This document shows positions 1 to 33,422 of a stretch of DNA of 64,000 nt, in pieces; within the stretch, counting starts at the first letter, position 1, and every line of letters starts with the position of its first letter. The notes under the pieces were generated by a model that was not told the origin of the DNA, did no database searches, and worked only from the letters and a program-made list of their open reading frames with translations. Source of the stretch: Micractinium sp. NFX-FRZ (lineage: Eukaryota; Chlorophyta; Trebouxiophyceae; Chlorellales; Chlorellaceae); contig JAPTJF010000220.1 of assembly GCA_029339195.1 (NCBI GenBank), positions 33,929 to 97,928 of the forward strand, given 5' to 3'. The translations under genes and the position numbers were made by a program.

Positions 1-3000
1 GGCTGAGTAGAGTGCAACTGCAAGGCTGGACTGTGGGAAGCACAGGGCCGGCGGCTGTGGGTCGACAGCTGCAGCAGAGCTCACTCAAGCAGCTGCAGCA
101 GCATGGCAGGCACAGCAGTGTTGCCTACCTCGGGTGCGCCTGCCAGCTTCAGGACAGCTGCCTGCAGCTCCTCCAGCCCCTGACGGGTGGCAGCCGAGGT
201 CTGCACCATGGCCGAGAAATGCGCGCAGGCGCCAGCCGGCACGCCCGCCAGCTCAGCTCCTGCTGCAAGGGCGCCGCCGCCAGCGCCGTTGCTGCTGCCA
301 TTCTGCTGCTGCGCCTGCTGTGCCCTCTGCCCAGCCAGGTCGGTTTTGTTCAGCACCAGCAGCGCGGGCGGCCCCCGCCGCGTGCTCCCGCTGCCGCTGC
401 CGTCATCCGCATCGCTATCCCCGTCGCTGCTGGCCGACCCCACTCCAAACATTTGCTGGAAGATCTCCGCATCGCCCTCCGTCCACCCCGTTTCTGCATC
501 CACCACCATCACCACTATGTCTGCCTGCCGTGCCGCTGCCAAACTGCGCTCCACCCCTATCTGCTCCACCAAGTCAACCGATTCCCTCAGGCCCGCAGTG
601 TCCAGCAGGGTGATGGGGATGCCACCGATGACGATGCCTGTGGGGAAGGGGGAGGCAGCAGGTGAAGGGTGGGTGGAAGGCAAGCCTCAGCCCTCGCTCC
701 CACTCACCTGGTGTGGTGCCAGCTAGGCCTGCACCCTCTCCCCGCCCACACACGCTCTTACCTGGGGCTTGCAAACTCCAACACACCGCCCCCTCTCACC
801 CGCCTCCACAATGTCCCGCGTGGTGCCGGCAATGTCTGTCACGATTGCCCGCTCCGTGCCGCTCAGCGCATTCAGCAGGCTGGACTTGCCCACGTTGGGG
901 CGCCCCACCAGCGCCACCTGCGGCAGCCAAAACAGTCGAAAAACGGTCAGCGGGGCTGCGCCTTTAGCACATTCAGCCAAGTGGAGTTGCTCATGTAGAG
1001 GCGCCCAACAACAGCCAATTGATAGTGGCAGGGCAGCGGGGCCCACAGCAGCGGCGGCGTTGAATAAGAAGGCTGTGGGCAAGCAAGCATTTGAGGCGGT
1101 GAAGGTGGTTATATGCCCAGCCCATAGAGTGTGGGGTGCTTTTGGCATGGTAGCTGAACGCGGGCACCGGCGGCACCTGGTGCGCCCGGCAGGCCAGCAG
1201 GCAGCAAACTGCATGCAACAGCCCCAGCCGGTCAACCTGCCCGTAGCAGCGTGCCCGCAGCAGCCTGCCACAGCCACAGCCGGCCCACCCGCCCGTGTCA
1301 CCTGCAGGCCCGCCCGCAGCAGCTGCCCCTGCCGTGCCGTGCGCAGCGTGCGCTCCAGGTGCAGGCCTAGCTGGCGGACGCGTTCGACGAGGGCTGGGAC
1401 GTCCAGGGGGGGCAGGTCCTCGTCAAAGTCCAGCCTGGCGCCAGACGGGCAGGGCAGGGCAGGGCGCAACAAAGGAGGTGGGCGGGTAAGACGGGGGCAT
1501 TGTGTTGCTTGACGCCTGCCTGGCGATGTGGCGTGCAGAGGCAGGACCTGGGGCTTGCAAGAGGACCGGCACACCCTGTGCAGTGTGATATCCACTCCCA
1601 CAGCCTGCTGTGTGTGGCCGCTAGCCCCTGCTGCACTCGTAACTAGCCCCCGGCCCCTACCCTCCCAGGCGTCCTTCTCGCTGCCTGTGCCAGACACGAG
1701 TCCACACACCCGCCCGCGCACACTGCTCCTCAATCAATACACACCAATCAACCACTGCTGTCCCCCATCAGATGGCTCCCCCCATTTCACACCACCAGGC
1801 TCACCGTGCATCCAGCTCAACCAGCAGGTCCACACACTCTGCCCGCATCAGCTGCACCTCCCGCCCCAGCCCGCCAGACAGCCCCGCCAGGGCGGAGTCG
1901 GCGGCCGCCACAGTGCGGGCGTCGATGAGCTGCATGAAGGCAGCGCGATGAGGCACAGTGGGTTGGGGCGTGGAAATGGCAAGGGGTCAGGGCCCATGAT
2001 GCTCGCCGCTGCCAGGTGCCCGCATTGCCTTGCCCAGCACTGCATATGAGCGCATGCAGTAACATGTACACAACACAGGTATGTGGGGGCAGGAGCATGT
2101 GACTGTTGCTGGCCTGCATGCGCTTGCACCCACCTGCGCCACGCTCTCGGCTTGCGACAGATCCAGCCGGCCATTGAGGAAGGCGCGCAGCGTGAACTCC
2201 CCCGGCTGCGCCAGCCGAGCCCCCGCCTCCAGGCAGCGCTGCACGCGGCGGGGATGTGTGGCGGGCGAGTGGGTGGGCAGGTGGGCAGGGTGGGCGGGTG
2301 GGCACAAGGAGCGGGTGGGCAGGCGGGTGAGCGGGTGAGCACAAGGAGCGGGTGGGCAGGCGGGTGAGCGGGTGGGCGGGTGAGCACAAGGAGCGCAGCC
2401 GCCCTGGGCCAAGGCGCAGGTGTCACAGCAAGGGACGCAAGCAGCAGCCAGGTGTGCTCCTTCCTGCTCCTCCTGCACTCGTCGTTATGATGCCCGTCTG
2501 GCACACCGCACCCTCCCACCCTGGCTGCTACCAGCCACTGCACACCTGCAGCACGCGCTGCGCGCTGACGCCGCCGCCGTGCGTGTGGATCTCTATCACA
2601 TCTTCCGCCGTGTAGCTGCGGGGCTCCAGCATGGCAAGCAGCAGCACCTGCGGTGTTGCGGGAACAGGCAGCGGCAGCGGTGTGGCAGGGGTGTGAACAG
2701 TAAGCGGGCACGCGAGGTTGAAGAGGAACTCTGGCACGCTCACGTGCCAGGCGCCCAGAGCCCAGCTGTTGCCAGCTGTGGTCACCTCACCTCCCGGCCC
2801 ACTAACACATGATAAGTCGCACTTGTATTCCCTCACAAACTCGCACCTCATCCAGCAGGCTGCCCCCAGCGTCCACAGCGCGTCCATAATACACACGGTG
2901 GCTCTCCGGCTCCCATGCCACCGCAGCGCACCCTTGTCCGTCCCCTGCCTGCTGCGCCCCCGCCTGCCGCCGTGCGCCGCCTGCTGGTTGGAAGACTTGC

Positions 3001-17488: not shown

Positions 17489-18631
17489 ATGGCCACCCAC
17501 TTGCAGACCAACAAGTGGCCAACAGGGCTCTGTGTGAGTGCTGGACTATACTGGTCGTCCAAAGTGTGCCGTTTGGAACCTGCAAGCAGGGCGGGCACTG
17601 TCGCCGCTCCACTGCCGCCAAACGCGGAAGTCTAAACGGAGGCCCCGTGGCGCCGTGCCTCTAGATAGTTTGCATGCTTGGTTGTGAATAGCGCTGGTTA
17701 TCTTGCCAGGCGGCAGCAGCAGCTTGCTGACGCCAGCTGTTGCGCCCCCCGCCCGGTGCCGCCCAACGGCGACGGCTGTGCTTGCCGGCCCTGCTGCCGT
17801 CTCCTGTGCTCCGCATCGGACGTGCGATAACCGTTGCACACGACGCCCGCCCAGCACGAGATGAGCCACACCCCCGAAACTTGATCTCATCCGTCCTCAC
17901 GGTCCTTCCCGCCTGCCTCGTCTTTGTGTGCAGGACTGCTTCTCAGACTGCGGCACGTGTTGCTTTGGGTTCTTTTGTGCGCCATGCCTGTACGGCCAGA
18001 ACGCCGAGAAGCTGGGCAGCTCGTGCTTCGCCAACTGCCTCCTCTTCTTCCTGTGCGGAGGCATGTTCTCCTGCTGCTTCACCGGCAACCGCCAGAAGCT
18101 GCGGGCCAACCACGCGCTCGCCCCCGAGCCCTGCAACGATTGCTGCGTCATGTGCTGGTGCGTTTGTGGCAGGGTCTATGTGGCAGGAGCTGCTGCAGAG
18201 CGTTCTCATTTGTAGAGGCTCATGGCTCGTGGCCTGCTGGTGAACCCGTGCTGCTTGAGGCCTTCTGAGTCGGTGCTGGGCTGTCAACCGGCTGGCCAAG
18301 TCCTCACGCTGCTCCCATCTGCCTCGTCTGCGCTGCAGGTGCCCGGCCTGCGCTGTGTGCCAGGAGGCGCGTGTGCTCAAGGTGGGTTGCAGACGAGGAG
18401 GGCGAGGATCGGTGCCAGTCCGTTGCATGCTGGGCGGGACGGGCATGGCAGTGCTGGGTGGTTAGTTGCTTGGCTGCTAGTTGGGTGCTGCGCATTGGCC
18501 GCCCCGCCACGTCCCCCTCACAAGCACCGCCTGCCTGCACCCCCTGCCTGCAGACGCACGGCGCGGCGCCCCAGTTCTACCAGGCACCCGTGATGGCGCC
18601 TCCGCCGCCCCAGGCCATGGCGCAGGTGTGA
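17489..18631 (+). CDS. PLAC8 family cysteine-rich membrane protein
   Basis: Four exons, 17489-17533, 17934-18157, 18339-18381 and 18554-18631, give exactly 129 codons plus stop, with every phase matching. It reads MATHLQTNKWPTGLC|DCFSDCGTCCFGFFCAPCLYGQ..., the WxTGLxDCxxDCxxCC start of PLAC8 (plant PCR cadmium-resistance / FW2.2-like) proteins. The usual CCxxxxCPC core appears as CCFGFFCAPC. A hydrophobic Cys-rich span follows (ANCLLFFLCGGMFSCCF), then CVMCWCPACAVCQEARVLK, typical of the C-terminal half. The tail is Pro-rich. Plant relatives affect divalent cation export or cell number; the role here is inferred only from the family. The first exon is only 45 bases, and its start is the ATG directly before the conserved block. 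Confidence 0.9.
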
Positions 18632-19670: not shown

Positions 19671-22600
19671 ATGCGGCGCCTCTTCGTGGTGCTCGACCTC
19701 TCCCTGCTGCGTCAGCCGGGGGAAGAGCAGCGCGAGGCGGTGCTGCAGCAGCTGACCACTACCGTAGCGCGGCTATGGGCCGCGTACCAGCCCCCCGGCA
19801 GCAGCGGCGGTGGCGGCGGCCGGCACGTCAGCTGGGGCTATGCCCTCTACGACTCTGCCTGCCCCGAGCTACTGCTCAAGCCCAAGCTGCGGCGCATCGC
19901 TCAAACCCTGCGTGAGTAGCTGCCCTGCTGGATGGGTGCTGCTGGCTCTCTGCCGCTGAGGCGGCCACGCTGCATCGCCCGGCCGGCAGCTGTTGCCAGC
20001 TGCCCACTTGATCACTTCCGCCGTGTTTGACGCGTGCATGCCCCCCCACCTGCCCCCTGCAGGCCTGCCTGCGGCCTTCCAAGAGATCATGCAGACCGAC
20101 TGCCGGGGCGCTGAGTTGGCGCACTTTGTCGCCCTGGTGGGTGCTGCTGCCCAAGCCTCTGTGGAGGGTGGCAGCAGCAGCGAGGCGCCAGCGGCGGCGC
20201 TGGCGCGCTCCCTTCAGAGCGCGCTGGGCTCCAGCTTCATGAAGAAGCTTCAGGAGCTGGCAGACAACGACAGCAGCAGCGGCGGCAGCGTGCGCAGCAG
20301 GGCAGACGGCCTGCTGGTGCTGCTGACCCCCGGGCTGAGCAGCAATGCACATGTGCAGGACTTTGTGGGTGCTGACGTGCGCACTGGTGACGTGGCGGAG
20401 CGGCTGCTGTCGGCCGCCCTGCCGGCCGCGCTGTGGCAGCGGTGCTCCGGCGGCGCGCTGCGCGTCTGCTGGGTGGCAGCTGATACCGTTGTGGCTGGCA
20501 GCGGCGGTGAGCAGCCGCTGGCGGTGCTGCCACCGCTGCAGACGCTGGCAGTTCTGCCGCCCATGCAGCCTCTGGCGGTGCTGCCGCCGCTGCAGGAGCT
20601 CATGCGGCAGCACTGCGCCCAGGCGTCCGCTGCGCCCCTGGCTGAGCTGGCAGGGCCTTGCAGCCAGGCGGAGTTTGCTGCGCGCCTGGCGCTGCCGCAG
20701 GCATCTACTGCAGTGGATCAGCAGGCAGCGAGGCAGGCGGCGGGGGAGCAGGAGGAGGAGGATGATCCCTGGCCGGCAGCGGCTGGTCCGGATGAGGATG
20801 CAATGTCAAACCTGAAGCTGCTAGTGGCGTGCTTGGAGGGAGCCAAAGGTGGGTGCTCATTTTGGGCTCTCTTGAAAGGAGCCAAAAGTGGGTGCTCAGT
20901 ATGGACCGGCTGACAGGCCAAGGTGATGTGGTGCAAAAGCAAGGCGGCGGGCAAGCATTGGAAGCACAGACAGCAGTCAGATATTGCAGCTGCATGCATG
21001 TGTGCATGCATGCCCGCGCTGGCTGCTGTGAGAGCTGACCTCCTCATTACTGCCAATTGGGCCCTGTGCAGAGCGCGAGGCGGACGAGGCCCGGCGCCGG
21101 CTGCGGGTGCAGCACCGCCAGCTGGCCAAGCAGCGACAGCACACCATGCTGCCGACCGCGGCGCGGCGCCAGCTGGTCGCAGTGGGCAAGAAGGGGGCGG
21201 CACTGCTTGAGAATGCAAAGCGCATGCAGGTGAGCTAATCTGTGCTGCTCCTGTGCTGCTGGTGCTGCTCCCGCTTCTTGGCACTGGTAATGCGGTGCAG
21301 GAAAGTGGCTGGCTGGCTGGATGCAGAGGTGCACAGTGAATGTTTCAGCTGCGATGTGCCCAGTTCCGGAATATGCATACAGTAGAGCGTGACCACTGCT
21401 GTGCCTCCTCCCCTCCCCGCCTCCCCGCTTGCAGGCCCGCAAGGGCGGCGCCTCCCAGCCCAACTCTGCACGCGCCACAAGTGACGACGGCGCCGCGTTC
21501 TCAGATGACATGGCGGCTGCAGCGGCTGTCAGGGCTGCCACGGCTGAGGAGGGCGAGGAGGCAGACAGCGGGAGCATCATGCCGCCGGAGGCAGCGGCTG
21601 CCGAGCTCAAAGGGTGAGGTGCAGCTCGAGATGGACATTGGGGGGTTGTGGGAAGGGTGGGCGCCACTGCGGGAGGCCCTCGGCTGGAGAGCGCTTCCCC
21701 TATGTTCCTTGCCAGCAGAATTTGCCGGCTCTCGTGTTGTAAGCGAACCGCGTCTGAGGTTAAGAGCGGCTGCAGCCGGTAGGCGGTTATCCTTGGGGGG
21801 GGCAGCTCAACTAGGGCCCAGCTGTGCCACCCTCTGAGCCCCATGAGGCCTCACGCCCTCCATTCCTCACCCACGCCTCTTCCCTCTCTCTCCCGTCCAG
21901 TCGCCTGGAGGAGCTTCTGGCCAGCACAACAGCTGCCGAGCAGGCCCCCGCCCCGACAGCGCTGCTGCAGCAGATCCGCTCCCTGGTGGAGACGTGCTAC
22001 TCCTCCATGCAGCGCTACTGCAACCGCAGAGGCCAGCAGCCACAGCAGCAGCAGCAGGCAGCTGCAGCAGGGGCGGCCACAGAGGGTGCAGCCGCAGCTG
22101 CCGCTGCTGCTGCACCTGCTGCAGCTGCAGCCGATGAGGCGACCAGCGCGCCGCCACTGGCGGCATTACTCGCTGCACCTGTGGCGCTTGCCCCGGCCGC
22201 CGCGGCCGCCAGCGGGCAGCAGTCACAAGGCCAGCCATTTGCAGCAACAGTGGCGACGTCCATCGATGGCATGCGCTCGCTGCTGCTGCAGCAGGTGCCG
22301 GTGGCTCTGGCCGACCTGCGGCAGCAGCACACGCGGGCAGAGGAGCCGGCGGAGGTGCGCGCCCTCTCCCACCGCTTCCTCCACGAGCTCCTGCTGCGCC
22401 TCAGCATCTGCGCCTACGGTGAGGGGGCTGCTCTGCAGGGGGAGGGGGGTTGTTCCCGGCCGGGGAAAGGGGTGCTTTGACTGGCCGCATGCATGGCGTG
22501 CTGGCTGGGGGTGTGCTGCGCCTGACTTGACCTGCGTGCTGGCTGGCTGCTCACCGTGCCTGGGGTCAGGCAGTTGGCTGCCTGGGCGGCCCCCCAGGGG

Positions 22601-25600
22601 CGCAGGGCTGTGGGTTGCGCCGCGCGCCAGCAACCTGCTCCGCTTGTGGCAGGTAGATCCATCCCTGCCCTGGCTCATCCTGCACTCCTCCCGTTTGTTC
22701 TGCCTCTGCAGGCGCCCGGGCAGGCGGCCAGCTGCCGGTGGGGCAGTACGCTGAGGTGGAGGTGCTGATGCAGGCAAGTTCGGCCAGCAGGCCTGCTCAT
22801 GGTTAAAATTGGTTCCTTGGGGAAACAGATTCCAGTGGTTTGCCACGCTCGTTAGCGGCATTGCTTTCCTTGCCCCTGCGCTTTCTTGCCCTGCTGCGCT
22901 GTTGTACACCCCGCCTGCCAGCACAGCTGCCCACAACCAGCGCCCCGCCCCTTTTTGCCCCTCTTTACCTGCTGCAGTGCCTGGTCGCCACCCGGGACCC
23001 GATCCCAACGGGAGGCCAGGATATCTTCACCACCTGCATCAAGAAGGCTTTTGGTGAGCCGGCCGGGTGATTCCGCCAGATTACATGCATCTGGGGTGCG
23101 GGCTGTGCGTCCCTGCTAGCTGGTGTGTGTAGGAGTGTCTTCCGCAGCGCTCCTGTTCCCGTCTCCTCTGCGCCCCTGCTCCATCCACCGCCCTCTCTCA
23201 GCTGACCAGCTTCTTGCTTCCCCTCCCGTCTCCGCCCCCCGACCCCTGGGTCCCCATTTCCCTCTCTCCGCTCGCCCTTCCCCCTGCCTGCAGGCGCCCG
23301 CTTCCCGGCTGACCTGCGCCGCCTGCAGGGCGAGCTGTGGGATGAGGACCTCAGCCTGGACTTTGACTCAATGATGGGGGAGCAGCGCGACAGGGTGGGT
23401 TGGTGGGTGGCAGGGTGGTCTGGTCGGCGGGCGGGGCCTGACGGGGTTGGACGGCAATGATGTGCGGTGCCTGCACATAGGGGCTCACTGCACACAGAGG
23501 GCTCCGCCCTTGCAGCGGGCGCTCACTTAATCCTTCGTGGTTGTCGGCCTTGCGCTCACGCCTGCGCCTGGGGACCCCCTCGCCTGCCAGCCCTGAAACG
23601 CCACACTGGCACTGGGATCACCTCGCTGCCAAGCCATCACTGTTTCACACTGCCCCGCTGGATGCTGACATGAGGTGTCTGCCAAGACTTGCGACATCAT
23701 CTCACTGCCACGTCACCTCCCTGCCCCGCAGGATGCCGACATCGAGGTGTCTGGAGAGACGCCCGACTGCAGCACTGGGCCGCTGGCCTCGGGGCCCTCC
23801 AACCCCTCTGTGCAGCGCGCACGGCGTGAGCCCAGGGGCCAGCCCCCCGCCGCCGCCCACCCCAGCATCCTCGGGAGAGCGGGCAGCGGGCAGCGGGAGG
23901 CGTCTGGCAGGGAGTGCACCAGCGGCCGCCCGTCGGCGGGCACCGCCCGTGCCAGCGGCAGCTTCATGAGCGGTGCGTGGGGCGGCAGGGTTGGTGGGCT
24001 TCTTGCTGGTTACTCATCACTTGTGTCTGCTGTGCCTGCTGCCTGTGCCAGACCTGTGGTTGGGCCGCCCTCACTACGGCATGTGCTGAGCCTCATCCCC
24101 ATCCACCCACCTGCCTGCAGGCGAGCACAGCGGCGTGCACGGCGGCGTGAGCGGCGTCCCTGCTGCGGCCCGCTCGGGCGCTGCTGCAGCGCTCACCGCC
24201 ACCAGCCGTGGGGCGCTGGTCAACTTGGGGCACATCAAGCAGAGGTGGGGAGGGGCCAGAGGCCTGGGCAGCTGGGTTGCAGGCAGCTGGGTGGAAGGCT
24301 GGCAACTGGTAGTTGGGTCGACCAAGCGTGCTGCGCTTTGCTGCGCTTCTCAGTCGACCACTCTTGTGGGTCTTGACTTGATGGCCCGTTCCTGACTTTA
24401 GTTGCATGTTTCTGGCACGTATCAGCCTTCCTATTAACTGACTATTGATGCTATTGATCTCACATTGTCCCTGGCAGGTACAACAACACCAAGCTGCTGG
24501 AAATGCAAGTTCGGTCCAAGGTGCCCGCCAACCTTCTGCAGAAGAGCAAGCTGAAGCACGCCACCGCCAGCAGCCGGCTGCCATCCAAGCCAACAGCTGC
24601 AGCAACTGCAGGCGGCGCAGGCAGCAGCCGTGCAGCAGCTGCAGTGGCAGCTGCCAACAGGAGCCGTGCAGGTGGTGCAGCGACGGCGCCGGCCCCCACC
24701 CCGCAGCTGGCACCGCGGCCGCCACGCGAGCAGCAGCAGCGGCGGCAGGTGCCCGCAACTCCCGACAGCCGTGGCAAGCGACTGCGGGAGGCGGCAGCTG
24801 TCGCAGCCACAGGGGAAACCCAGCGGCAGCAGCAGCAGCAGCAGCAGCAGGCATCAATGATGTCCGGCGAGAACATCACCTCACCAGACAACATCCAGCT
24901 GGCAGCTGCAGGGCAGCTGCACCCTGGCACTGGCGGTGCTGGCGCAGCAGCTGCGGCCTCTGGCATGGAGGTCATTCCTGACACAGACGTCCGCCCCGCG
25001 CTGCCGCGGGCGCCCGCACTGGCGGCGGGAGCAGGAGCAGCAGGCGGAGGCCTGATGCGCAGCCCCTCCATGCGCCTCAACTTTAGTGAGTAACAGGCTG
25101 CCTGCCTGCCTGCCTGCTTGGCGGCCTGCCTGTCTGCCTGCTTGTTTGCTTGCCCAACTGCCTGTCCGCCTGCCAGTGCGCGCACAGTCGTAGGCTGCCC
25201 TACTTGCCTTCGGTGCTGCATGCACTTTTGGCTTTGCCACCCTCAGCACATGGCTTGACTGCAAACCAACAACTGACTCATGAATGATCACCCCGTTTCT
25301 GCCCGCCGTCCGCAGACGCCGTGCCTGCTCCAGCGCTGCTGGCACCAGGCGCCATCCTGGCCTCCCAGCAGCCGGCAGGCAGCGCCAGCACCTCTCCCGC
25401 CGGCGCAGCAGCCGCAGCCGCACCCCAAGTGCCCACGTGGATGATTGCTGCCACGAAGGCAGCCAAGGGTGGCAGTCGTGGGGGCACAGCCATGCCTACA
25501 GTGGCGTCCTTTGGCGCGCTGGCAGCGGCTGGCTTGGTTCCCCTGCTGGCTGAGCCCTCTGCCGCAGCGCCAGTGGCAGTGGCGGCAGCCGAGGCGGCAG

Positions 25601-27713
25601 GAGATGAGGAGGCACCAGACGCAATGGAGTGTGACCCACCCGCGGCCTCCATCCCTGCCAGCCCTGAGGCCGAGTCTCTGCCCCAGCTGCAACCCTCTGC
25701 ACAGCAGGAGGCAGCCGGCGGCAGCCCAGCAGCAGAGGCAGGCGCAGAAGCAGAGGCAGAGGCAGAGGCACCCGCTCAGATGGAACAGGAGGCTGTGGAG
25801 CAAGAGGCAGCGGCATGCGCCCCCACAGCGGCCGCACGGGGTCGCAGCAGGAGCAGGGCAGCGGCTGAGGAGGGGGCGGCAGCAGCAGCTGAGCCGGCCC
25901 CCACCACGGCCATCCGCACGCGCACCAGGAGCGCGGCAGCGGCAGATGCAACAGCTGAGGCACCGCCAGCGGCCACCAAGGGCACCCGCGGTCGCAGCAG
26001 GAGCAAGGCTGCGGCAGCATCAGAGGAGGCAGAGGCAGCTGCACAGCCAGCTTCCACCACCGCTCGTGCACGCAGCATAAGCAAGGCTGCGGAAGCAGCA
26101 GTGGCGGAGGCAGAGGCAGATGCGCAGCCAGCATCCACCAAGGGCGCCCGCGGTCGCAGCCGGAGCAAAGCTGGGGCAGCAACAGGGGAGGCAGAGGCAG
26201 ATGCGCAGCCAGCATCCACCACCGCTCGTGCACGCAGCATTAGCAAGGCTGCGGAAGCAGCAGCGGCGGACGCAGAAGTTGAGGCTGTGGCAAAGGCACA
26301 GGCGGAGGCAGCCCCTGCTACAGCTGCCCACACGCGCAGCAGGAGCCGCGGCAAGCAAGCTGCTGATGCAGCCACCCCAGCTGGGCAGCAGGCAGGCAAG
26401 CAGGCGGCCAATCCCAGCAGCCGGCCGGCAACAGGCGGGGCCGCCTCTGCGCAGACTCCCGGCGAGGGGCAGCAGGAGCAGGATGCGGCGGCCCCTGCCA
26501 GCGGACGGCGGGCCACGCGCAGCACCCCGGTGGCGGTGCCATTGCAGGATCAGCCAGAGGCTGCCACCTCTGGGCGCAGGCGTTCCGACAGGCTCACCCC
26601 GGTGGCAGCGCCAGCATCTGAGGAGCCAGCAGCAGGCGTTGCCTCTGGGCCGCACCGCCGCTCACCCAGGCTCACGCCAGGCGGGCTCGAGCAGCCTGTG
26701 GCAGCACAGCAGCAGCCCCAGATGGCTCAGGGCAAGCAGAGCGGCCGCCGCAAGTCTGGTGCTGGTTGCACGCCAGGTGCAGCTGGCGCTGGCTCCGCAG
26801 CTGCGGTTGAAGAGCCGGCGGCAGCCAGCGGCCGCGGCAGGAAGCGCCGCGCTGCCGAGCCTGCAGGCCAAGCAGAGCCGCAGGAGGTGTCAGCCGCGGC
26901 AATGCCTCAGGATGAGCAGGTAGAGCAGCCAGTGATGGCTGCAGAGCAGCTTGCCAGTATCGCTGCCAAGCTCGGCTGCAGCAAGTGCAAGCAGTGCCGG
27001 ACCGGTTGCGCCGCCTGCCGCCCCGCTGCGGTGGTCGCTCTGGTGAGTGCCTCTTTGACTCCCACCCCCTGTGTTACTCCTGCCTGACGCTGCCACGCAT
27101 ATAAGCATGCTGTGATGCCTGCTGTGCCCTGCTGCCCTTTGCTTCCGTGCCGGGGCTGGAAGCCTTGCTTTCCCACTCTTCTTTCTCGGCATTCCCCTGC
27201 ACTCCCTGCTCCCTTGGCACCTGCAGGAGGAGGCGGGCCTGCAAGAGCTGATGGCGGGTGTGCGCTGGCACGGTGAGTTGCCTGCCAAACGGGAGAGCTG
27301 CCCTGCTTACAGCCTTGCTTCTCGCACCAGCTGAGACTCATGCGCCATACCACCCCTCGCTGGTGCAACTCCTCCTCAGGCGTTGCTCTACAACATACTC
27401 CACTCTCCATCTCAACATGCTCCACTAACGTGCTTCACTCCACATCTCCACCCTCCTGCTTGTTGTGCCTGCCCCCGCAGGCAAGTGCCGTGGCAGTGGC
27501 TGCGCTGAGTGCTGGGCAGCAGTGGTTGCTGCACTGGCGGCTGCGCCCGCTGGCGAGGCAGCACCGCCAGCTGGTGAGCCGAGGCCGGAAGCTGAGGAGG
27601 CAGCGCCGGCAGTTGAGGAGGCAGCGCCAGCGACAAGCGGCAGCCCTGGGCCAGCGCGCAAGCGCCGCCACACGCGGCACAGTGCCGGGGCGGCTGATCT
27701 GCTGGCCCCAGCT

Positions 27714-27744
<31 letters not shown>

Positions 27745-30700
27745 GCGCTGAGCCCGCTGCAGAGGCAGCAGCAGCAGAGGCAGATGCCCATGGCGATGCT
27801 GACATGGCAGAGGTTCCAGCAGAGCAGGGCGTGGCTGCAGAGCAGCCCGACGCCAGCAAGCCGCGCAGCAGCCGGAAGGCAGCAGCCAAGGGCGGCACCG
27901 CCCCTGCGCAGGCCTGCAAGCCAGCCACGCGCCGCACCCCTGCAGCAGCGCCAGGGCAGGAGGAGCAGGAGCAGGGGCAGGCCACGGAGGCAGCACCGCC
28001 GTCCACTGCCTCCCGCCGGGGCCGCAGCGCCAGCAGGCGCCAGGGCCTGGAACCGGCCCCAGAGTCGACGCCGCCATCCACTGCACCTCGCCGCGGGCGC
28101 AGCGGCAGCAGGACGCAGGCGGGGACGGAGGCAGCGCCGCCCACCGTCCGGCGAGGGCGCAGCGCTGGTCCCCCTGAGCAGGGGATGTATGCCTCACCCA
28201 CCGCTGCAGCCGTTGCAGTCAAGAGCCGATCCCGTAGCAAGAGCAAGGGCAAGGGCGGCGCAGCAGCGGCTTCTCTGGCTGTGGTCACTGCTGCTGCAGC
28301 TGCGGCTGAGGCAGCCGAGGCAGCAGCAGTGGCTGGCATGCAGCCGGCTGCCCTGGCAGCAGCAGCAGAGGGCGCAGCAGAGATGGACGTGGATGGCACG
28401 GCCCCTGCTGCGGCGCCCCCAGTGCCTGCCTCCCTTGAGGCAGCTGCGGCAGCTCTGGCAGCAGCAGTGGCACCCGCAGTTCAGCCAGCAGCGCCAGCGC
28501 CTGTCCCCAGTGCTACCGACCCTGTCGCGGGTGCCATGGCGGCTGCTGGTGCCTTGGCGGAGGAGCTGGATGCCGAGGCGGGAAGGGACATGGCGGGGCA
28601 GCAGCAGCAGCAGCTTCAGCAGGTGCCGCTTGGGATTGAGGACATCCTGGCTGCGTCAGTGGTGCCCTCTACAGCCGACGCTGCAGCAGTGGCAGCCGCC
28701 GCCGTGCCTGATGCGGCAGCGCCAGAGGTGGCACCTGCTTTGCGTGGCCAGCCGGAGCAGGAGGAGGAGGATGGGGATGGGCCGGAGCAGCAGCTAGGGC
28801 AGCGCAGGCGGCTGTCTGGCAGCGGCTTCTCCACTGGCAAGCGCCTAGGCTTCATGCAGACTTCGTCTGCCTCGGTGAGCGACTGACAGTACTGCTTGCA
28901 CCCCCACCTGCTTGCCCCTTCTGTTGTGTCTGTGGCTTGCCTCGGCTGCGCTTGCAGCTATCTTTCAGTTTGCTGCTGCGGCAGCACGCTGAATGCAGCT
29001 TGCATCTGCTGGTGCATTCAGCAGCTGCGTGGCACGCCGCAGTCGCCATGTTGCCGGGATCCACAATGCCGGCCTGTGTGTGCCTGCCCACTGTCCCCAG
29101 CGCATGTCTCACCCCGCTGCTCCTCTTTCGCACTTGCACCGCCCCCCGTGCCTGCAGGCGCGCAAGCGCGGCGCCAGCAGCCAGGCGACCAGTGGGCGTC
29201 CGAAGCGGGCAGCGTCCGGTGCGTCCGTGCCAGCACCCTCATCACGCCATGCCAGCCGCTCACCAGTGCCAGCTCTGCTGCGCCAGAGGGCTGCCGAGTC
29301 GGGCGGGGCCTCTCAGCCAGGCTCGCCGTATGAGGGTGCCTACAGCTTTGCAGAAGAGGAAGGTGACTCTGCAGCGGCAGGGGCAGGGGCAGGGGCGGCC
29401 CAGGCTGCTGAGCTGGCAGCCGAGCGCGCTGGCGCAGCAGCCGGGGCGGCAGCAGCGGCGACGGCAGCCGGGGCGGCTGCCAAGGGAGCCGCAGCAGCAG
29501 CGGGTGACGCCGTCATCGAGCAGGGTGAGGCGGCTGCACCCGCCACTGGCCCGTTCCAGGTTGTGGGCAGCCCCGAAGTGTCGGCAGCCGGCCAGCCAGC
29601 GCGCTACAAAGAGGCGCTGGAGCAGGTGCAGGCGATGGCACACAAGGCGGCAGCAGTCCGACAGCAGCAGCAGCGGCAGCAGCAGGAGGACTCAGATGAC
29701 TCCTGCCCAGAGTCTGCCATGCACGACAGCCAGCTCATGCCGCAGTCCCCTGCTGAGGTGGCCGGGCCGGCAGCCGCCAGCGCAGCTGCCGCAGCGGCGG
29801 CGCGCTCCCAAGCGCCCACCCCGCAGGCCAAGCAGCGGCGCCTGTCGCCCGGCGTCGCCGCCGTGCCCGCACAGCCGCTGCCGGATGGCATGGGCAACAA
29901 GCAGTTTGGCTCTGGCACAGAGAAGCCCAGCCTGCTGCTGCCACAGCAGGCGCAGCAGCCCAGCGCAGGGCTGCGGCCGCCGGTGGTTGGTGACAAGCTG
30001 GCCCTTGCGGTGCGTGGCTCCCAGCTGGGCTCCCTCAAATTTGAGGAGGCCACGGTGCAAGGTGAGCGAGACACGAGCATGGGTTGACCACTGAACTGGT
30101 CACGACCAGGTGCCAGGTGCCGCTGCTTTTGCTGCCGCCCTGCAGTGCAGGCCACTAGCTTCATGCTGCTGGCGGGTTTGAACGGTGCTTGCAAGCGTGC
30201 CGCATCCATAGGCTGACTATCGAGTGTGTTTACCCGGCCTCTTGTGCAGAGTTGCTTCCTGTGGAGGGGGCTCCCGCCCCCGCCAGTGCACCCTTTGTGC
30301 TGCCACTGCTGGTTGAGTGAGTGCCCACTTGCATGTGTGCTCCTCAGCCTGCCACCCAACCGCCAGCCGCATGCCTCTACCGCTTTGCGTCTCCACGCCC
30401 TGCAGTTATTCCCTCAAGCCTGCTTTGCTTCCAGCCTGCCATCTGTGCACCGCAGACTGCATCCCTCGTTGCACCCTGGCAGTTTGACCTAGCGCGCCCT
30501 GCATGCCCCGCCCACTCCGCCACATCCGTGCAGGCTGCCTCGCGCAAACCTTGGGATCGAGGTGCAGCTCAGCTCAGCCAACTTTGTCGCGGCGTGGCAG
30601 CCGCTGACCCAGCTGCACCAGTGGCAGTGGCTGCAGCCTCAGGGGGAGGCGCAGCTGCGGGCCCTGCAGCTGCGGGCCGACCAGCAGCGGCTGGCAGTGC

Positions 30701-32829
30701 AGAGGCAGGAGCTGGTGGAGCAGGAGGGGCGGCTGGTGCAGCAGATGGAGGCGGCCCAGGACCCCAAGTACCGGCATGTTGTGGTGAAGCAGCTGGCAGG
30801 TGTCTTGCTGCAGAGGGAGACGCTGGCACTGGAGCTGGTGGGCGCTTACCGTCAGGAGCAGCTGCTGCTGGAGGGGCTGGTGAAGAGGCAGCCCACGGAT
30901 CGGGCGCTGGAAGCAGAGCAGCTCGGGCTGCTGAATGACAGGCTGCAGCAGCTGGAGCTGGTGGTGCAGCAGCTGGCGGGGGAGTTGGATGATCGGCAGC
31001 AGGAAATGCTACGGCGGCAGCTGCGGCAGCAGCAGCAGGCACAGCCTCAGGCCCCTGACTCCACTACCTCGATTCGCAGCGCAGCTCCGGGGGCAGCACT
31101 GCTGCCGCCTGCTGAGGCACCGGGCGAGACGCAGCGGCACAACGCGGCGGCGCGGCAGCAGGAGCGGCGCAGCAGCATCGACAGCTTGGTGCTGCCGCAG
31201 TCGGTGCAGCAGCTGCGGAAGCGGCAGGAGCAGCAAGGGCAGGAGCAGGAGCAGCCGGCGCCCTCTGCTACGCCCCGCGCTCGCCAGCTGGCATACCCGC
31301 TCAGCCCGCCCGCTGCCGCGCCTCAGCCGGTGGCTGTTCCGGGCAGCGCAGCGCGCGCTGCCGGGCGGCCCCCGCTGCCGGCGCACCCTTTTGCGGCAGT
31401 AGGAGCTCCACAGGAGATTCAGTCACCCGCCCGACTGGGGCTCTGCTCTGGCTTTGCCCAGCACCGGGGCTCTCCCGCACGTGCGCAGCTGCTGCGCTCG
31501 CCAGCGCAGGCGCGGCCGGCAGCGCCGTCACCGTCACCGCTGCGCCGCCTGCCTCCCCTCTCTGTCATCTCTGCTCAGCTGGCTTCCCCAGCCCCGGCGG
31601 CATGCCAGCCCCAGCAGCCGCAGCAGCAGCAGCAGCCCCTGCCAGCCACGCAGGAGCAGCTGCCCGCCACGCAGGCACAACTGCCAGCCACTCAGCCGCA
31701 GCAGGCCGGCGCCGCACCCCTGCCCGCCACACAGCCTCACGTGCCCGCCTTGCAGGCAGACAGCCAGCTGGCGGCGGCAGCAGCAGCCGCAGCGGCTGAG
31801 GCCCTGCAGGACGCTTTTGGGGGCGCGCCCGCACAGCATGGCCAGCAGCACGACGCACACACGCAGCCCTGCCGCAGCACTGAGCAGAGCATGGGGGAGG
31901 CAGCCATGCAGGCGCTTCTCGATCGCATTCGGTGGGAAGCTGCTCGAGTCACCGTGGCTGGCGCCCCTGGCGGCAGCAGCAGCGGCAACGTCGGCCCGGC
32001 TGACCCAGCGCAGCAGGACGGCTGCGTGCTGCTGTACTGCACCAAAACCTCGGGCCCGGCAGGCCTGCCCATGCTGATGCAAGCGCTGGTGCTGGAGACC
32101 CGGGCGCTGCAGGACACAAGCCCCGGCAAGCGGGTCAGGTGAGGTTGATTGTTGTGAAAGGATGGGCCAAGCAGTGCCGGCATGGGCCGGCGCCACGCCG
32201 CAGGTCGAGAAGCATCATTGTACCCCAGCGTGCCGCATGCACACTGGGTGATCACAGCGTAATGCCGGCGTAGCATATCGGGTTACCTCACCAACATGCC
32301 AGGCGCGCCACGTTTCCCGCGGCCTGGTCCCTGCCCCTTCAGTACACCAACTCTCACCATGCTCGTGCACCCCCTCCCTCAACCCTCCCCTGCAGCCACC
32401 GGTGCCGGGCGGTGGTGCTTGCCAAAGGGCTGCAGGGCGGCATTCTGGAGCCCACCCAAGCCCTGGAGACTGTCGAGCTCGAGCTGGGGCAGTCCTGGCA
32501 CCAGGAGAAGGAGGAGGGGGTGCGGAAGATGCGGCAGTGGCATCCCCTGGGCCGCGTGTCGCAGGCGACACGTGAGTGCACAGGTGGCGGTAGGCGGGGA
32601 GGGAGGCGGCCAGGCGGGGAGGGGGACGCGGCGCTGCAACTGGCTGGGTTGCGCGCAAGGTGCCATGGCGCTTGTGCAGCATGGTCTGTAGTTAGAAGCG
32701 CAGCAGCACAGCGCTCCACGTGGTCTTCTTAAGAAGGTAGATTGTGGATGCCAACCTGCCCCGCCCCGCTCCTGCCAACCCACTGCAGTCTCGGAGGTGG
32801 CGGTCGCCGTGGCAACACAGCAGGCGTAA
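19671..32829 (+). CDS. Giant protein with Treslin/TICRR-like N-terminus
   Basis: Nineteen exons join in phase from ATG 19671 to TAA 32827: 19671-19911, 20063-20848, 21072-21229, 21436-21615, 21901-22420, 22712-22773, 22978-23053, 23295-23394, about 23733-23969, 24121-24244, 24480-25089, 25315-27042, 27227-27271, 27481-28875, 29158-30060, 30250-30317, 30532-32139, 32395-32570 and 32788-32829; about 3,000 residues. The N-terminus (MRRLFVVLDLSLL... HVSWGYALYDS; later DGLLVLLTPGLSS... HVQDFVG) resembles the vWA-like start of Treslin/TICRR, the metazoan Sld3 counterpart that loads CDC45 at origins. Residues about 350-700 hold a basic helix (ARRRLRVQHRQLAKQRQ) and LLQQIRSLVETCYSSM. The middle (25.3-28.8 kb) is Ala-rich and disordered, with SR-type repeats, RLTP motifs and a Cys cluster. 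The C-terminal part is a Gln-rich coiled coil (30.6-31.0 kb). The Treslin call is from pattern only. The join at 25089/25315 (GTGAGT donor, phase 1) matters: without it this would be two genes. Confidence 0.6.
25830..26360 (+). repeat. Coding tandem repeats with RGRSRSK / RARSISKAAE modules
   Basis: Within the giant protein, units of about 30 residues alternate between T(K/R)G(T/A)RGRSRSKA and TTARARSISKAAEA, spaced by Ala/Glu-rich linkers (AEADAQPAS). About six units are visible; two are nearly identical at DNA level (26040-26130 and 26200-26270). Confidence 0.85.
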
Positions 32830-33422
32830 CGTCGACACGGCAGACAGGCCACAGCACCGGGCCTCTGCATTGCGCTTAGCTTACACAGGGTGTAGAAAAG
32901 CTCGGCAGGTAGCCAGGCAGTACATCAGCTGGCACCGTTTCATGCCTGCGTGCTTCGTCGCATATCATTCTTGGGGGTTTTATTGGGTGTTGGCCTGTCT
33001 GCTGTAACATGCAGCACAGCTGCTGTAATGCAGCTCGGTGAGTCGTTCCCAGCACTCCCGGCAGCCGGTGGGGCCACCAACATGCCAGGCGTCGGCGGCA
33101 GTACAGCAGGGCAGGTCGCCGGCCGGCGTGCTTCGACACGCAGCTCGCCGTGGACGTGCACCTTCCCTTTGTTGTGCTCTGGGGTCCCTGTTCCGGCGAC
33201 GAGGTGCGCGGTTCCATCCTTCCATGATTGCAAGTTGCTTGCTGCTGGCCGAACATCTGGCGGATAAAACTACGTTGCCCGCGCCATCTAGCGTGATTCC
33301 GAGCCCCGCCGCGCAGCTGCGAGAGCGGCGGCTCTGGTCCCACCCCCCGCCACGCTGCCGCCAGTGCCGCCCACCCCGGCCTCGCCTCCCTTTTGCAGCA
33401 AAGCACAGCAGTAGCGGCTGTC
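32830..33422. other. Intergenic region with TGTAA
   Basis: TGTAA at 33003-33007, 174 bases after the giant gene's stop, is a likely poly(A) signal. A ttttgcag acceptor at about 33390-33397, just before the MYND A start, hints at a 5' UTR intron. Confidence 0.45.

Follow-up and report, generated by a model that had tools for sequence, protein, structure and literature searches.

A candidate Treslin/Sld3-like gene with a long low-complexity tail in the green alga Micractinium sp. NFX-FRZ

The locus and its gene model

We analysed a stretch of 64,000 nucleotides (nt) from the green alga Micractinium sp. NFX-FRZ (contig JAPTJF010000220.1, positions 33,929 to 97,928 of the forward strand), here called the window, together with the genome around it (66 Mb, 838 contigs). 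The window holds a predicted gene of 19 exons whose product is likely to be a green-algal factor of the Treslin/Sld3 type that acts in origin firing. Treslin/Sld3 is the point at which cyclin-dependent kinase (CDK) switches on replication origins, and it is hard to trace because its sequence diverges fast. A candidate in fast-growing algae would help to tell the universal parts of the switch from the others, and to learn whether the contact with MTBP/Sld7 is optional. In a literature search covering titles and abstract starts among the matches listed, with subscription journals mostly outside it, we found no description of an algal Treslin.

The preliminary description of this DNA, made from its letters alone, had joined 19 exons into one frame, and we reproduced that frame to the base: from the ATG at 19671 to the TAA at 32829, 9,054 nt encode 3,017 residues and a stop, with no internal stop codon (Table 1). 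Seventeen of the 18 introns are of the GT-AG type and one (22774-22977) is GC-AG. Reading through the introns meets at least one in-frame stop in 17 of the 18; intron 9 (23973-24120) has none, but its length is not a multiple of three. Exons 1 to 11 are confirmed by sequence homology, as described below. The predicted joins after exon 12, other than that of exons 17 and 18, are based on splice consensus and phase, and the called frame gains no support from codon preference in exons 12, 14 and 15.

TGTAA is a poly(A) signal of green algae, and the longest stretch of the window's plus strand that is free of it runs from 21738 to 33003, ending 174 nt past the stop codon. In the genome, neither exon 2 nor the coil-like beginning of exon 17 matches anything but its own locus. 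At the DNA level the first 1,001 bases of the gene have a single other match, of 86 bases at 79%, which covers the exon 2 repeat.

Table 1. Features of the gene, in window coordinates
Feature	Position	Strand	Basis
Whole gene model, 19 exons, 3,017 residues	19671..32829	+	exon assembly
Exons 1-7	19671-19911, 20063-20848, 21072-21229, 21435-21613, 21901-22418, 22712-22773, 22978-23053	+	
Exons 8-13	23294-23394, 23732-23972, 24121-24244, 24478-25085, 25316-27042, 27227-27272	+	
Exons 14-19	27481-28874, 29158-30061, 30250-30316, 30534-32138, 32396-32571, 32789-32829	+	
vWA-like domain (CIT), residues 1 to about 292, exons 1-2	19671..20697	+	relatives' alignment; P0012 fold model
All-helical STD-like domain, residues about 455-722, exons 5-9, with Ala/Gln-rich insert and SGETPD end	21901..23776	+	BLAST to 18/18 relatives
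Conserved RYNNTK...MQV stretch, residues 824-860, exons 10-11	24228..24571	+	pattern in 16/18 relatives
VPATP, candidate CDK site T923, candidate TopBP1-BRCT-binding motif	24749..24763	+	[VI]P[DAN]TP in 18/18 relatives
VIPDT, second hydrophobic-xx-T motif	24971..24985	+	VIPNT-type motif in 18/18 relatives
RSP (S1024), possible second CDK site, last conserved block of exon 11	25058..25066	+	alignment
PGAIL...PTWMIAA motif, start of exon 12, bears on the 11/12 join	25345..25452	+	pattern and profile
Cys-rich module, C1586, 1589, 1592, 1596, 1599, 1625, 1630, 1633	26977..27512	+	exons 12-14
Gln/Leu/Glu-rich coiled-coil-like stretch, residues 2447-2580	30640..31041	+	sequence inspection; no Pfam match
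Small C-terminal domain, residues about 2907-3000, exons 17-18	32020..32558	+	second copy on contig C30
Two TGTAA, candidate poly(A) signals	33003..33028	+	

Relatives and the identity of the conserved domains

A protein search with residues 1-1031 scored 7,993 candidates and returned none at E 0.01, and a sequence search of the PDB gave no match. When the search words were limited to residues 588-870, a single match was obtained (P0001, 1,671 residues, E 8.4e-8), and a search from P0001 yielded a family of 18 proteins, P0001 included, of 1,108 to 1,933 residues. Two of these are named, M9435_003692 of Picochlorum sp. BPE23 and P0016 (Picsp, taken as Picochlorum; its title follows Chlorella variabilis CHLNCDRAFT_50408); they have 1,481 and 1,532 residues, both are titled only as hypothetical proteins, and a literature search on the relatives' identifiers found no paper. 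Nine stretches of viral contigs fit a pattern and none was confirmed.

The relationship covers the whole N-terminal third. By BLAST from the window protein, the region resembling the Sld3-Treslin domain (STD) matches 17 of the 18 relatives at E 1e-8 or better and P0018 at 8e-5, with 38-50 identities over 149-151 positions; the vWA region matches 15 with E-values up to 1.1e-4, and no match to P0002, P0003 or P0017 is found there at 1e-3. A profile of the 18 relatives, built without the window protein, gives residues 1-1031 a score of 290.9 bits, in a single alignment that covers 2-1001 (the E-value of 3.7e-90 was computed over three sequences only). All 18 have the same parts in one order: a vWA-like domain, a linker, an all-helical domain, and VPxTP and VIPNT-type motifs.

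The vWA-like start given in the preliminary description is backed by a fold model of the relative P0012, which has a vWA fold at its N-terminus; an N-terminal CIT with this fold is a feature of animal and plant Treslins. The STD-like region of a relative is helical in its fold model, and sequence comparison suggests that it is the STD. For this comparison we used a working version of the human TICRR sequence; Pfam recognised Treslin_N, Treslin_STD and Treslin_M in it, each with an E-value no higher than 3.6e-60. When the family profile is compared with human TICRR, the top match places STD on STD, scoring 30.6 with the window protein included (reached by 0 of 201 decoys) and 26.3 without it (4 of 201). 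The second match aligns the last part of the vWA domain with the equivalent part of the human CIT; its score was reached by 15 and 19 decoy hits, three of each near the same diagonal. In domain-wise shuffles, with and without the window protein, the STD score was reached by none of 300 and the vWA score by one of 300.

Several results weigh against this assignment. Pieces of the window protein gave no Pfam match, Treslin and MTBP models included; the family consensus sequences gave no match to Treslin_STD, and gave helix-type matches to unrelated families instead; and the PDB fold lists for the helical domain contain no Sld3 (3WI3, 8J09), which does not exclude Sld3. Profile searches of the PDB returned no usable match. 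Treslin_STD and Treslin_N found nothing in the alga's own genome, a search without power because control genomes were silent too. We also considered whether this could be a nuclear protein of the alga from outside the Treslin/Sld3 family, with a vWA and a helical domain whose likeness to Treslin arose by convergence or goes no further than the common vWA fold. We judge this quite unlikely, given the STD-on-STD match, the order of the parts, the VPxTP motifs in all 18 relatives, and the sub-threshold match (E 0.049) of P0008, residues 319-432, to Pfam Treslin_STD, which only this one of the 18 relatives has. The Treslin/Sld3 assignment proposed in the preliminary description thus gains moderate support from the top profile match and the VPxTP motifs; membership by curated profiles is not established, as the Pfam Treslin models do not recognise the window protein.

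The candidate CDK target that had been proposed earlier lies among the motifs beyond the helical domain: the most plausible putative site is T923 (VPATP), and the next is S1024 (RSP). The SP at S1024 is not kept in most relatives, and the VIPDT of the window protein is not a CDK site because its next residue is D. According to PMC6175577, ligands of TopBP1/Rad4 BRCT1 and BRCT2 carry a hydrophobic residue three positions before the phosphosite, as in SVAEpTP of Treslin and TVPNpTP of Mdb1. The algal VPDTP and VIPNT sequences fit this rule. A possible partner is encoded on the minus strand of contig C111 (136000-145500), where three open frames were scanned and BRCT domains score above the Pfam cut-off in two of them and below it in the third; this multi-BRCT gene is a candidate TopBP1/Dpb11-like partner. 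Three short sequences, SGETPD, GSG(I/V)HG and R(F/Y)NNSKQ, are strongly conserved between the window protein (residues 708-860) and the 18 relatives; they lie after the helical domain and ahead of the TP motifs, and we identified no known counterpart for them.

Extent of the protein and its tail

Exon 11 ends in RSPSMRLNF, and unspliced read-through hits a stop two codons on. The join from 25085 to 25316 had been doubted earlier, and it now has modest support from the motif at the start of exon 12 and from the family profile, which scores 4.2 bits across the join and 2.4 on exon 11 alone. This gain is small, and shuffling the start of exon 12 reached it in 7 of 500 cases, as did 1 of 140 other stretches of the model. 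The motif resembles the next motif of the relatives (its W part in 18 of 18, PG[AV]I in eight, the full pattern in five), and the pattern, which was defined post hoc with the sequences already known, occurs once in the six frames of the window. A [TSN]W motif likewise lies downstream in all 18 relatives and in exon 12. The gene thus probably runs on into exon 12.

The following tail of about 2,000 residues is largely low-complexity, and the profile of the 18 relatives gives it -40.5 bits (residues 1032-3017), with no match past residue 1031. Its C-terminal domain, which has no Pfam name, has one further match in the genome, at about 54706-55360 of contig C30 (36 of 100 residues identical). That copy has an intron at about the same place, and since it spans the equivalents of exons 17 and 18 it supports their join. 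The C30 gene also has a sub-threshold AP2 match (E 0.097) upstream of the shared domain.

These observations raise the question of whether two genes have been falsely joined, a Treslin-like gene of about exons 1-12 and a separate downstream gene that uses the later exons. The silence of the profile on the tail, the shorter length of all the relatives, the recurrence of the C-terminal domain beside an AP2-like match, and the uninformative codon preference in exons 12, 14 and 15 would fit such an arrangement. It is nevertheless unlikely, in that the family's next motif is present in exon 12, the plus strand lacks TGTAA between 21738 and 33003, the Cys-rich module is continuous over exons 12-14, and one frame is kept over all joins. 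A single protein of 3,017 residues is the probable reading. For the giant of about 3,000 residues proposed earlier, the frame itself was reproduced; the membership of exons 13-19 in the same protein, and hence the full length, is not established.

Three further observations concern this region and its surroundings. The Cys-rich module (CSKCKQCRTGCAAC...HGKCRGSGCAECW) is a possible zinc-binding unit and has no Pfam match. Exon 12 contains a tandem repeat (25965-26276; period 162, 1.9 copies) that codes for units of the RSRSKAA/RARSISKAA type. Upstream of the gene, on the plus strand at about 17865-18215, lies a Cys-rich frame that resembles PLAC8-type proteins.

Proposed role and comparison with known systems

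Between the vWA domain and the STD, the P0012 model has no predicted strands, and in the family this linker has 128-247 residues with a hydrophobicity of 12-22%, compared with 34% in the human barrel. An MTBP-binding M domain, a Ku-like barrel, is not predicted for the algal family and is unlikely, though not excluded, because the alignment behind the P0012 model is shallow. A search of the whole genome with PF14919 (MTBP_mid), which has little power in this lineage, gave a best E of 2.26, on contig C296.

Since MTBP and Treslin have both a vWA domain and a barrel (PMC8807876), we also weighed whether the window protein is the MTBP/Sld7 counterpart rather than Treslin. This is highly improbable: no barrel is predicted, an STD-like domain and TP motifs follow the vWA domain, and MTBP Pfam models are silent on pieces of the window protein, although Treslin models are equally so. 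Within the Treslin assignment, we tentatively entertain the idea, itself somewhat doubtful, that the Treslin of trebouxiophyte green algae lost the barrel and so fires origins without MTBP/Sld7 as a partner, lineage-specific tails having taken over dimerisation and regulation; an extreme form would be the window gene, with its 2,000-residue tail. Such a loss, if true, would be the most interesting feature of the family.

From these parts we infer the following mechanism. The vWA domain would correspond to the CIT of animal and plant Treslins, and the helical domain, acting as an STD, would carry Cdc45 to the loaded MCM double hexamer. CDK would phosphorylate T923, and perhaps S1024 too, so that a TopBP1/Dpb11-like protein could dock there through its BRCT repeats and bring GINS; assembly of the Cdc45-MCM-GINS (CMG) helicase, and with it origin firing, would therefore depend on CDK. 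Animal Treslin and yeast Sld3 hold MTBP/Sld7 by the barrel; the algal family, which seems to lack it, may rely on a different contact or dispense with that partner.

Among known systems, MTBP and Ku70/Ku80 resemble the algal family in their N-terminal vWA fold. In MTBP/Sld7 and Ku70/Ku80 a barrel follows, unlike the prediction for the algal family, and the available text of PMC8807876 does not describe an STD-like domain with TP motifs for MTBP/Sld7 or Ku. Yeast Sld3, which recruits Cdc45 (PMC12416888), likewise has a helical STD-like domain followed by motifs of the CDK/BRCT-binding type; unlike the algal family it has no vWA domain, and its barrel, which binds Sld7, is truncated (PMC8807876).

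The hypothetical proteins of Picochlorum and Chlorella variabilis are direct relatives over residues 1-1031 and are shorter, with C-termini other than that of the window protein. As laid out in PMC8807876, Treslin consists of the CIT (vWA), the M domain (a Ku-like barrel that binds MTBP), the STD, and the TDIN with two CDK sites; the CIT is common to animals and plants and absent from fungi, and plant Treslins are credited to Sanchez-Pulido 2010. The algal family differs from Treslin/TICRR in having no predicted barrel and no significant Pfam Treslin match, and the window gene differs further in its unrelated tail of about 2,000 residues. With Treslin/TICRR of animals and plants it has in common the vWA domain, a helical domain at the place of the STD, paired hydrophobic-xx-T(P) motifs that resemble the TDIN, and a long, mostly unstructured C-terminus.
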